Shown: one piece after another, positions 15,849 through 35,976 of the stretch
How positions within the stretch are numbered: the stretch's first letter is position 1
How the letters are laid out: each line of letters starts with the position of its first letter
DNA from: Cryptosporangium aurantiacum
Lineage (GTDB): Bacteria > Actinomycetota > Actinomycetes > Mycobacteriales > Cryptosporangiaceae
Assembly (NCBI RefSeq): GCF_900143005.1
Contig: NZ_FRCS01000001.1
Span: 248,001-312,000, forward strand
Length of the DNA: 64,000 bases
Direction: 5' to 3'
Notes under the pieces: generated by a model
Seen by the model: the letters and a program-made list of their open reading frames with translations, nothing else
What the model was told of the DNA's origin: nothing
Databases searched by the model: none
Program-made: the position numbers and the translations under genes

Positions 15849-15897
15849 TGACGCGTAACCGGGCTCTAAGCCGTGCTTAGAGCCCGGTTACGCGTCA
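15849..15897 (+). terminator. 22-bp perfect hairpin after ilvD
   Basis: TGACGCGTAACCGGGCTCTAAG (15849-15870) pairs fully with 15876-15897, loop CCGTG. It separates ilvD from the ilvB promoter. No U tract follows. Confidence 0.75.
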
Positions 15898-15937
15898 ACG
15901 GACGTCAGGACGCGTGAGACCACAGAGTGGGATGGGT

Positions 15938-15973: not shown

Positions 15974-16006
15974 GTGCGATCCACCCTGATTCTCGTACTC
16001 AGCTAG
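15974..16006 (+). CDS. ilvB leader peptide
   Basis: GTG-started ORF of 10 codons plus TAG encoding VRSTLILVLS. Five successive codons, Leu-Ile-Leu-Val-Leu, cover all three branched-chain amino acids made by the pathway, the signature of an ilv attenuation peptide. An in-frame GTG at 15965 overlaps the -10 box and is unlikely to be used. The stop codon abuts the first arm of the attenuator stem. Stalling here on scarce Leu, Ile or Val would favour antitermination. Confidence 0.85.
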   Translation: MRSTLILVLS

Positions 16007-16069
16007 CGCGTCGACAACGAACCTCGTCGACGCGCTCACCCCCCGTGCCACAGGCACGAGGGGTTTTTT
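16006..16069 (+). promoter_or_regulatory. ilvB transcription attenuator
   Basis: Three alternative structures can be drawn. The pause stem is GCGCGTCGAC (16006-16015) with GTCGACGCGC (16026-16035). The terminator is CCCC-CGTGCC (16040-16049) with GGCACG-A-GGGG (16053-16063), followed by six T. The antiterminator is CCTCGT (16022-16027) with ACGAGG (16056-16061). The antiterminator uses the loop and 3' arm of the pause stem and the 3' arm of the terminator, so it excludes both. A ribosome stalled on the leader codons would open the pause stem. Confidence 0.85.
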
Positions 16070-16120
16070 GTTGCCTGAGAACGCCGACCCGCCTTACCGC
16101 TACACGAAGAGGCCAATGCC

Positions 16121-33356: not shown

Positions 33357-34064
33357 TCAGAGTACTCGGGGAAGGCGAGCCGCGTCGATGAGTGCGGTGA
33401 ACAGGCGTCGGTCGTCGAGCATCTCGGGGTGCCACTGGACGCCGACCGCGAACCTCAGCGCGGGGTCCTCGACCGCTTCGATCGTGCCGTCGTCGGCGCG
33501 GGCGGTCACCACCAGCTCGCCCGGGTCGTCCACGGCCTGGTGGTGATGGGCGTTCACCTTGAGGTCGGTGTCCCCGAGCGCGTCGGCCACCCGGCTGCCC
33601 GGGATCGCCCGCACGGTGTGCCAGCTGAAGACGCCGAGCACCTCGCGGTGATCGTGGTGTCCGACGACGCTCGGCAGGTCCTGGATGAGCGTCCCGCCGC
33701 GGGCGACCGCCATCAGCTGGGCGCCCCGGCAGACGCCGAGTAACGGCAGGTCCCTGGCGAACGCGCCGCTGATGAGTAACAGCTCGCCGGCGTCGCGTTC
33801 GGGCTGCGGCGCATCGGTGGAGGGGTGCGGCACGGCACCGTAGCGCGCCGGGTCCACGTCCACGCCCCCGGCGACGACCAGCGCGTCGAGCGCGTCGAGC
33901 ACGGCGTCATCCGTACTGTCCGGCGGGAGCACCAGCGCACGACCCCCGGCGGCCGTCACCGAGTCGACGTACACCTGGGGGAGCAGCGAGGCCCGGAAGT
34001 CCCAGACTCCCCAGCGGGCCTGCTCGACGTAACACGTGATGCCGACGAGCGGACGACGGGCCAT
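33357..34064 (-). CDS. Gamma-glutamyl hydrolase, class I amidotransferase (PuuD-like)
   Basis: A 235-residue peptidase C26/PuuD-type enzyme. The Cys-His-Glu triad is C112 in LLGVCRGAQ, H212 and E214 in VGVQWHPEML. LVVAGGVDVDPARYG and VNAHHHQAVDD are typical of the gamma-glutamyl-GABA hydrolase subgroup. In gamma-glutamyl amine catabolism it removes the glutamyl group after oxidation, so it would complete the ligase/ALDH/SDR cluster 3 kb away, although the DrrAB-PadR genes lie between. It is divergent from cimA. Confidence 0.88.
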   Translation of the reverse strand: MARRPLVGITCYVEQARWGVWDFRASLLPQVYVDSVTAAGGRALVLPPDSTDDAVLDALDALVVAGGVDVDPARYGAVPHPSTDAPQPERDAGELLLISGAFARDLPLLGVCRGAQLMAVARGGTLIQDLPSVVGHHDHREVLGVFSWHTVRAIPGSRVADALGDTDLKVNAHHHQAVDDPGELVVTARADDGTIEAVEDPALRFAVGVQWHPEMLDDRRLFTALIDAARLPRVL

Positions 34065-34198
34065 GCGGCCTCCTTCGAGTCAGGGGTTCCATCGTCTTTC
34101 GGCATCATTGCGGGATTGTGTCGGGTGACTACCGTCACATCGAGACCACCATCTGGACGCAAGCGCGGGTCGCTCCGCCGCCCGGCGTCCGGATGTGT

Positions 34199-34204
34199 CA
34201 GTAT
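34199..34204 (+). promoter_or_regulatory. Possible -10 of the cimA leader transcript
   Basis: CAGTAT lies 6 bp before the GTG of the cimA leader peptide, nearly the same spacing as TAGCGT before the ilvB leader GTG (7 bp). No good -35 is visible at 17 bp, so the support is mainly the parallel with ilvB. Confidence 0.4.
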
Positions 34205-34210
34205 CGAGCC

Positions 34211-34237
34211 GTGACCGGGTTCTGCATTACCAGCTAG
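34211..34237 (+). CDS. cimA leader peptide
   Basis: GTG-started ORF of eight codons plus TAG encoding VTGFCITS. It holds one Ile codon, the product of the citramalate route, with Cys and Thr beside it. Its end, AGC-TAG followed by GCGCG, is identical to that of the ilvB leader. The short length and single Ile codon make the sensing weaker than in ilvB, but position and downstream folds support a regulatory role. Confidence 0.7.
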   Translation: MTGFCITS

Positions 34238-34295
34238 CGCGCCAGCACGCACCACGCTGACGCGCAGACCTCCCACGAGCGTGGGGGGTCTTTTT
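34237..34295 (+). promoter_or_regulatory. cimA transcription attenuator
   Basis: Same layout as the ilvB leader. The pause stem is GCGCGCCAGC (34237-34246) with GCTGACGCGC (34256-34265), one mismatch. The terminator is GACCTCCCAC (34267-34276) with GTGGGGGGTC (34281-34290), loop GAGC, then five T. The antiterminator is CCACGCT (34252-34258) with AGCGTGG (34278-34284), 7 bp perfect. The antiterminator excludes both other stems. Stalling on the Ile codon would open the pause stem and allow readthrough into cimA. Confidence 0.8.
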
Positions 34296-34371
34296 GTTGG
34301 TCCTGGGCCCGCTCCCGAACGTGCCCTGGCCTGGTCCGAGCCGTACTCGACCGCGCTGAGAGGTCTACGAC

Positions 34372-35976
34372 ATGCCCACCGCCCTGGATGACAGCTTCCA
34401 CGTCTTCGACACCACGCTGCGAGACGGGGGACAGCGCGAGGGCATTTCGTACTCCGCGACCGACAAACTTGCGGTGGCGCGGTTGCTGGACGACGTCGGG
34501 GTGGGGTTCATCGAGGGCGGCTGGCCCGGTGCGCTGCCGACCGACACCGAGTTCTTCGCCAGGGCGCGCGAGGAGCTCACGCTCAAGCACGCCCAGTTGG
34601 TCGCGTTCGGCTCGACCCGTCGCGCGGGTGTCCGCGTCCAGGACGACAAGCAGGTGGCCGCGCTGCTGGAAGCCCAGACGCCGGCCGTCTGCCTGGTCGC
34701 GAAGTCCGACGTCCGGCACGTGACCGACGCGCTGCGGACCACCTACGAGGAGAACCTGGCGATGGTGCGCGACACGGTCGCGTACCTGGTCGGCGAGGGC
34801 CGCCGGGTGTTCCTCGACTGCGAGCACTTCTTCGACGGGTACGCCCACGACCGGGACTACGGCGTGCGGGTGCTGACCGCGGCCTTCGAGGCCGGCGCCG
34901 ATGTCGGCGTGCTCTGCGACACCAACGGCGGCATGCTGCCGATGGGCGTCGGGCGGGTGGTGTCCGAGGTGATCGCGCGGACCGGCTTCCGCGTCGGTAT
35001 GCACGCCCAGGACGACACCGCGTGCGCGGTCGCGAACACGCTGGCCGCGGTCGAGGCCGGGGCGACGCACGTCCAGGGCACCGCGAACGGCTACGGCGAG
35101 CGGGCGGGCAACGCCGACCTGTTCGCGGTCATCGGCGGCCTGGTCACGAAAATGAACCGGCCGGTGGTACCTGCGGAGTGCCTGCCCGAGCTGGTGCGGG
35201 TGTCGCACGCGATCGCCGAGATCGCGAACATCGCACCGGACACCCACCAGCCGTACGTGGGCGCCAGCGCGTTCGCGCACAAGGCCGGCCTGCACGCCAG
35301 CGCGATCAAGGTCGCGCCGGAGCTCTACAACCACATGGAGCCCTCGGTCGTCGGCAACGACATGCGGATCCTGGTCACCGAGATGGCGGGCCGGGCCTCG
35401 ATCGAGTTGAAGGCCCGCGAGCTCGGCATCGACCTCGCCGACGAGCCCCAGGCGGTCGGCCGGGTGGTCTCCCGGGTGAAGGAGCTGGAGGCGGCGGGCT
35501 CGTCGTTCGAGGCCGCGGACGCGTCGTTCGAGCTGCTCGTCCGCTCGGAGCTGGAGGGCGCGGACGCGCCGACGTTCTTCCAGCTGGAGTCGTACCGGGT
35601 GCTGGTCGAGCAGCGCGGTGACGAGGTGGTCAGCGAGGCGACCGTGAAGCTCGCGGTCGACGGCGAGCGGGTAATCGCCACCGCCGAGGGCAACGGCCCG
35701 GTGAGCGCGCTCGACCGGGCGCTGCGGCAGGCGCTGACGACGTTCTACCCGTCGCTGGCGGAGCTGGAGCTGGCCGACTACAAGGTGCGGATCCTGGACG
35801 GCCGGTACGGCACCGACGCGGTGACGCGCGTCCTCATCGACACCACCGACCACAAGGGCGAGTGGACGACGGTGGGAGTGCACGGGAACGTCATCGAGGC
35901 GTCGTGGCGGGCGATGATCGACTCGCTCAACTACGGTCTGCGCCGCGCAGGCGCCCCGGTCCTCGCGCCGAACTGA
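34372..35976 (+). CDS. cimA: Citramalate synthase
   Basis: Condenses pyruvate with acetyl-CoA to (R)-citramalate, entering isoleucine synthesis without threonine. The 534-residue protein opens VFDTTLRDGGQREG, has the metal-binding and active-site stretches VGMHAQDDTACAVANT and HVQGTANGYGERAGN, and the conserved FAHKAGLHASAI loop. The C-terminal LeuA-type regulatory domain (DRALRQALTTFYPSLAEL to the end) is present. Length and motifs fit CimA rather than LeuA, which would show a HxH-containing variant in shorter or longer forms. It is read from the attenuator upstream; leuCD and leuB products process its product in relatives. Confidence 0.93.
   Translation: MPTALDDSFHVFDTTLRDGGQREGISYSATDKLAVARLLDDVGVGFIEGGWPGALPTDTEFFARAREELTLKHAQLVAFGSTRRAGVRVQDDKQVAALLEAQTPAVCLVAKSDVRHVTDALRTTYEENLAMVRDTVAYLVGEGRRVFLDCEHFFDGYAHDRDYGVRVLTAAFEAGADVGVLCDTNGGMLPMGVGRVVSEVIARTGFRVGMHAQDDTACAVANTLAAVEAGATHVQGTANGYGERAGNADLFAVIGGLVTKMNRPVVPAECLPELVRVSHAIAEIANIAPDTHQPYVGASAFAHKAGLHASAIKVAPELYNHMEPSVVGNDMRILVTEMAGRASIELKARELGIDLADEPQAVGRVVSRVKELEAAGSSFEAADASFELLVRSELEGADAPTFFQLESYRVLVEQRGDEVVSEATVKLAVDGERVIATAEGNGPVSALDRALRQALTTFYPSLAELELADYKVRILDGRYGTDAVTRVLIDTTDHKGEWTTVGVHGNVIEASWRAMIDSLNYGLRRAGAPVLAPN

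Follow-up and report, generated by a model that had tools for sequence, protein, structure and literature searches.

The citramalate synthase gene cimA of Cryptosporangium aurantiacum is probably controlled by a ribosome-mediated transcription attenuator that couples its transcription to charged isoleucine tRNA, a reading to which we assign a probability of about 80%. The gene was identified within the 64,000-nucleotide stretch of DNA analysed here (the window) at positions 34372..35976 of the + strand, as judged from its match to TIGR00977 (631 bits; cut-off 450). Citramalate synthase opens the isoleucine route that does not depend on threonine. A threonine deaminase is also encoded in the genome (G000:C5:311464-312597, above the TIGR01127 cut-off). 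Thus, two isoleucine routes coexist and cimA does not provide the sole one.

Architecture of the cimA leader

All parts of the element lie on the + strand upstream of cimA. A -10-like hexamer, CAGTAT (34199..34204), is found 6 nt upstream of the GTG codon of a short leader ORF, GTGACCGGGTTCTGCATTACCAGCTAG (34211..34237). Its codons are GTG ACC GGG TTC TGC ATT ACC AGC TAG, encoding VTGFCITS*, and the F-C-I-T-S ending followed by the stop is kept in all four of the four genomes of the genus. A -10 box about 6 nt upstream of the start codon is the arrangement of leaderless actinobacterial transcripts. From the position of the hexamer, we infer that transcription starts at about 34211, directly at the leader GTG. 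A [TC]ANNNT box at equal spacing precedes 96 of 136 cimA leaders, compared to a background of 0.7% per position.

The leader ORF is followed by two hairpins. The first, which we term P1, is formed by a 5' arm GCGCGCCAGC (34237..34246), starting at the G of the leader stop codon, and a 3' arm GCTGACGCGC (34256..34265); nine of its ten positions are paired and one is a C.A mismatch, which is replaced by a T-A pair in one congener (L005) and kept in the other genomes of the genus. The 3' arm of P1 adjoins, with no gap, an intrinsic terminator (34266..34295) with an 11-bp stem, AGACCTCCCAC/GTGGGGGGTCT. Written out, this hairpin reads AGACCTCCCACG-AG-CGTGGGGGGTCT and runs into a T-run. It is the sole terminator-like site within 34060-34420 (shuffles: 0.1). 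The only isoleucine codon of the leader, ATT (34226..34228), begins 11 nt upstream of P1. A sigma-70 scan returned no promoter between the terminator and cimA, although the proposed promoter of the leader escaped it as well; in some relatives the gap between terminator and start codon is shorter than 50 nt (29 nt in L049) and leaves little room for one.

A class-wide element upstream of cimA

To describe the element independently of the present genus, we aligned 35 cimA leader elements from genomes other than Streptomyces, leaving the genus out (alignment A1), and built the covariance model R1 from this alignment. R1 recovered the leader ORF, P1 and terminator of the window (34204-34299) with 72.6 bits (E 1.3e-17), which supports a leader attenuator upstream of cimA, as the first-pass annotation had proposed. 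The element upstream of ilvB scored 46.1 bits (E 2.7e-10), and these two were the only good matches in the 9.58-Mb genome. Among 297 genomes of the class, 188 contain an R1 match and 237 contain cimA. The two coincide, as matches were present in 183 of the 237 cimA-bearing genomes versus 5 of the 60 lacking the gene (Fisher p 2e-23). Outside the present genome, 67 of 69 sampled matches sit upstream of cimA, and the remaining two lie upstream of ilvB in genomes without a cimA match. Across 80 contigs and the genomes of the family, the element precedes nearly all cimA relatives. An automatic terminator finder overlooked 21 loci; R1 still recovered most of the ilvB ones. Many of the cimA-bearing genomes without a match belong to one family (f28) with genomes of 1.2-2.2 Mb. 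In two metagenome-assembled genomes of the Pseudonocardiales (L031, L032), cimA follows directly on the end of an upstream leuB-like coding region and the attenuator is absent.

P1 and the terminator covary and abut

The structure formed by P1 and the terminator is paired to 93.1%, and nine of its pairs are changed on both sides. Its covariation score is 0.210, compared to 0.086 ± 0.008 in shuffles, with 54 double-changed cells against 15.6. Upper P1 covaries to the extent that A-U, C-G, G-C and U-A all occur at one position. The junction of the two hairpins is likewise conserved: the spacer measures 0 nt in 117 of 142 cimA elements, while the best helices in shuffled sequences spread evenly over all spacers. 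The ilvB elements show a more variable spacer of -2 to 4 nt. A strong P1 base (GCGCG) lies beside a weak terminator base (AGA/UCU), and both hairpins fold together in the minimum-energy structure.

Most Streptomyces loci (L053, L057-L059, L062-L064, L066-L097) show a variation of this layout. Here, the leader ORF continues across the P1 5' arm to a stop codon some 16 nt into the P1 region, with the spacing of the control codon unchanged; the loop measures about 50 nt and may contain further small hairpins.

The zero spacer and the unequal strength of the two bases would also fit a simpler device, in which P1 serves as antiterminator without a ribosome: closure of the terminator would be blocked by the rigid and GC-rich foot of P1, and the ribosome would merely open this hairpin. 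Such a device predicts readthrough when the leader is not translated, and the result cited in PMC11857589, by which destroying the leader start codon of C. glutamicum ilvB lowered expression by 80%, points in the opposite direction. We therefore consider it rather doubtful.

The leader encodes isoleucine at a conserved control position

We next turn to the codons of the leader. Isoleucine occurs in 137 of 139 called cimA leaders, as an Ile-Ile pair in 126 of them, and 131 of the 139 have an Ile codon that starts 9-11 nt upstream of P1. These codons are also unusual in kind. ATT makes up 184 of 302 Ile codons in cimA leaders (61%) versus 8 of 1326 (0.6%) in the coding regions of cimA at the loci retrieved, a large contrast, although the species are related and the counts not independent. 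Within the window's own genes, ATT accounts for 2 of 176, whereas TGC and ACC are common codons. Three Streptomyces leaders (L062, L071, L090) carry ATG (Met) at the control position and Ile one codon earlier.

A metabolite sensor of the riboswitch or T-box type, for isoleucine or another compound and with an incidental ORF, would likewise be expected in cis, ahead of a biosynthetic gene. We regard this as highly improbable: conservation is found at the level of codons, no conserved unpaired region resembling a receptor exists besides them, and Rfam gave no match for the window elements or seven tested loci at either gathering or relaxed thresholds.

It had been noted at first pass that a single Ile codon leaves the sensed signal unclear, a difficulty that the comparison largely removes. 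The cimA leader of the sister genus (L008) is MTTRVIIIS*, ending in V-I-I-I-S, and that of Nakamurella (L061) ends in A-I-I-T-S. Thus, Cys and Thr have replaced the flanking Ile codons in the present genus, and the retained Ile lies at the control position. Since the lone Ile sits exactly at this universal position, isoleucyl-tRNA is the likely signal, rather than the cysteine or threonine species. The ilvB leaders contain mixed Ile, Leu and Val codons, unlike the Ile-type cimA leaders, so that each leader encodes the amino acids its own pathway makes.

Could the element of this genus instead have drifted to sensing Cys or Thr through its F-C-I-T-S ending, or have decayed into a constant terminator? 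Cys and Thr do neighbour a single Ile in all four genomes, and one further lineage (L176) also combines Cys codons with a single Ile. The Ile that was kept is nevertheless the rare ATT at the universal position, TGC and ACC are not rare in the window, and the closely related ITS* ending of Nakamurella occurs together with Ile-Ile. Decay is countered by an intact P1 and terminator and by the T-A pair in L005. Both versions appear quite unlikely. Further single-Ile leaders were found in L164, L169 and L176. That of L176, MTRVRQAHHLCSCRIS*, comprises two Cys codons and one Ile; together with the Cys codon of the present genus, this hints at a second, unexplained link to cysteine.

No conserved antiterminator is found

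A classical attenuator requires an antiterminator that is mutually exclusive with the terminator. The first-pass annotation had described a perfect 7-bp antiterminator, which we take to be CCACGCT (34252-34258) pairing with AGCGTGG (34278-34284). This match is present but not conserved: it is absent from two congeners (L005, L007) and from the sister genus (L008), and it is no stronger than chance (p 0.98). We then examined complementarity in 120 elements. P1 pairing itself stood out with a z of -4.2. In the same test, the P1 region was less complementary to the 5' arm of the terminator than shuffled sequences were (mean z +1.10), and its match to the 3' arm did not exceed the shuffled level (z +0.36). 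Overall, no sequence in the leader, in P1 or in the P1 loop of these 120 elements was conserved beyond chance as a partner of either terminator arm. Three further candidates were rejected: the leader codons GGGTTCTGC paired with GCAGACC in the 5' arm of the terminator no more strongly than shuffled leaders did, pairing of the P1 loop with the terminator 3' arm was not enriched (z -0.21), and an outer helix, CCAGC:GUUGG, taken from the folded window, was not enriched in 138 relatives. An overlap of 1-2 nt at the boundary of the hairpins (CU/AG) is possible in leaders of the TAG type, but not in those of the Streptomyces type.

The alignment with other actinobacteria that had been suggested at first pass thus gives a split result: P1, the terminator and the Ile codons are conserved, while the three-stem set is not, conservation being limited to P1 and the terminator. 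A three-stem attenuator, in which a pause stem precedes an antiterminator that binds one terminator arm and is mutually exclusive with the terminator, could still appeal to the 7-bp match of the window and to Corynebacterium ilvB, for which an antiterminator in the P1 loop (PMC10272879) and, with mutational support, an overlap of 3 nt between the bases of the hairpins (PMC11857589) have been proposed. Against it stand the loss of the match in three close relatives, arm complementarity no higher than in shuffled elements and a boundary overlap that Streptomyces-type leaders cannot form. We judge it unlikely, and the 120 elements do not appear to be of the classical trp type. As P1 and the terminator co-fold and no antiterminator is conserved, base pairing alone would not explain the switch.

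A related element upstream of ilvB

In the window, the ilvB leader ORF (VRSTLILVLS*; 15974..16006, + strand) carries the control codons ATT CTC GTA CTC and lies 7 nt downstream of a -10-like box, TAGCGT. Its perfect P1, AGCGCGTCGAC/GTCGACGCGCT, and terminator occupy 16005..16073 on the same strand, as judged from the fold and the R1 match (15974-16073). The order of leader ORF, P1 and terminator is the same as for cimA. A related ilvB element occurs in nearly every genome examined, and R1, although trained on cimA, detects it at all listed ilvB loci but L104 (E <= 0.005). The layout common to both leaders, first noticed in this window, extends class-wide. In the interval between ilvD and the ilvB leader, we also observed GACGCGTAACCGGGCTCTAAG...CTTAGAGCCCGGTTACGCGTC (15851-15898), an inverted repeat measuring about 20 bp that lacks a T-run; a long inverted repeat, though not this one, occupies the corresponding position in the congener L099.

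At first pass, the resemblance had suggested that a regulatory module was copied. We compared the 23 genomes that contain both elements. Identity of cimA to ilvB elements was 0.527 for pairs from one genome and 0.539 for pairs from different genomes (permutation p 0.94), with means of 0.647 for cimA-cimA and 0.568 for ilvB-ilvB pairs. This lack of a within-genome excess argues against a recent copy in this lineage and leaves room for an old event only. The 11-mer CAGCTAGCGCG, shared by the two leaders, is no evidence for copying either, since the sister genus has it upstream of cimA and not upstream of ilvB. The data fit descent of the two elements from one ancestor in an early actinobacterium, or their prolonged shaping in parallel.

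A model for the switch

A ribosome covers about 11-12 nt ahead of the first base of its A-site codon. With the conserved spacing, a ribosome at the control codon would therefore end just at P1. When isoleucyl-tRNA suffices, the ribosome would pass the ATT codon and reach the stop codon, where its footprint would cover the 5' arm of P1. Kept open in this way, P1 would allow the terminator to fold and transcription would end upstream of cimA. When isoleucyl-tRNA is short, the ribosome would halt with ATT in the A site and its leading edge just at the base of P1. P1 would then stay folded and, because it adjoins the terminator without a spacer, P1 and the docked ribosome together would hinder closure of the terminator base, so that cimA would be transcribed. 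This last step at the junction is tentative, and we hold it with less than even confidence. With its Ile run shrunk to one codon, the present genus may respond more weakly than its relatives.

More speculative still, cimA and ilvB may share an ancient class of attenuator, in which stalling of the ribosome 11 nt upstream of a hairpin contiguous with the terminator would block closure of the terminator base without an overlapping antiterminator, and whose specificity could be changed by a few codons.

Comparison with known attenuators

In the open-access literature (subscription papers lay outside the search), we found no published leader attenuator for cimA. A comparative study from 2005 (Seliverstov, PMC1262725) covers ilvB, leuA, leuS, trp and cys leaders, and a survey in S. 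lividans (PMC8079986) reports eight leader peptides including ilvL; cimA is not among them in either case. The actinobacterial ilvB leaders of these studies resemble those of cimA in combining pathway codons in a leader peptide with an intrinsic terminator, and in the genomes examined here they have the same P1 beside the stop codon, but only the cimA leaders are restricted to Ile. In S. coelicolor, codon substitutions in the ilvB leader reportedly left regulation unchanged (PMC1262725), which counts against the present reading.

A close parallel is Corynebacterium ilvBNC (ilvB-II motif; PMC10272879, PMC11857589), with a leader ORF that is leaderless, as that of cimA probably is, and contains branched-chain amino acid codons, and with a hairpin adjoining the terminator; for C. 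glutamicum, competition has been argued at the touching bases of the two hairpins (PMC11857589). The Corynebacterium ORF, however, extends across P1, and its attenuator is proposed to contain an antiterminator. In cimA, P1 starts at the stop codon or close to it, and the comparison revealed no conserved antiterminator for either terminator arm. The upstream ORF of M. tuberculosis ilvB1NC likewise contains branched-chain codons (LVVI), precedes a terminator and is translated, with reporter evidence for readthrough (PMC13236596); it serves another gene, and its authors propose an exclusive terminator and antiterminator. Enterobacterial trp, his and ilv attenuators would share control codons, ribosome position and terminator. 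They differ from cimA, which probably has a leaderless start and in this genome a single control codon, and for which we found no overlapping antiterminator. Pathway codons, P1 at the stop codon, an adjoining terminator and the relation to ilvB elements place the cimA leader with the actinobacterial two-hairpin attenuators of the ilvB type. As judged from the sequences compared, it is a widely conserved addition to the actinobacterial leader-peptide attenuators.

Biological meaning

The device lies before cimA across most Actinobacteria, which therefore probably turn on cimA once charged isoleucine tRNA becomes scarce. This would add a class-wide, isoleucine-specific control to citramalate synthase, whose route supplies branched-chain precursors in antibiotic-producing actinomycetes. 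The Ile-only cimA and the Ile/Leu/Val ilvB leaders offer matched natural pairs on one scaffold. Their geometry is testable as that of an attenuator without a recognisable antiterminator, and it bears on the puzzle of the Streptomyces ilvB leader.
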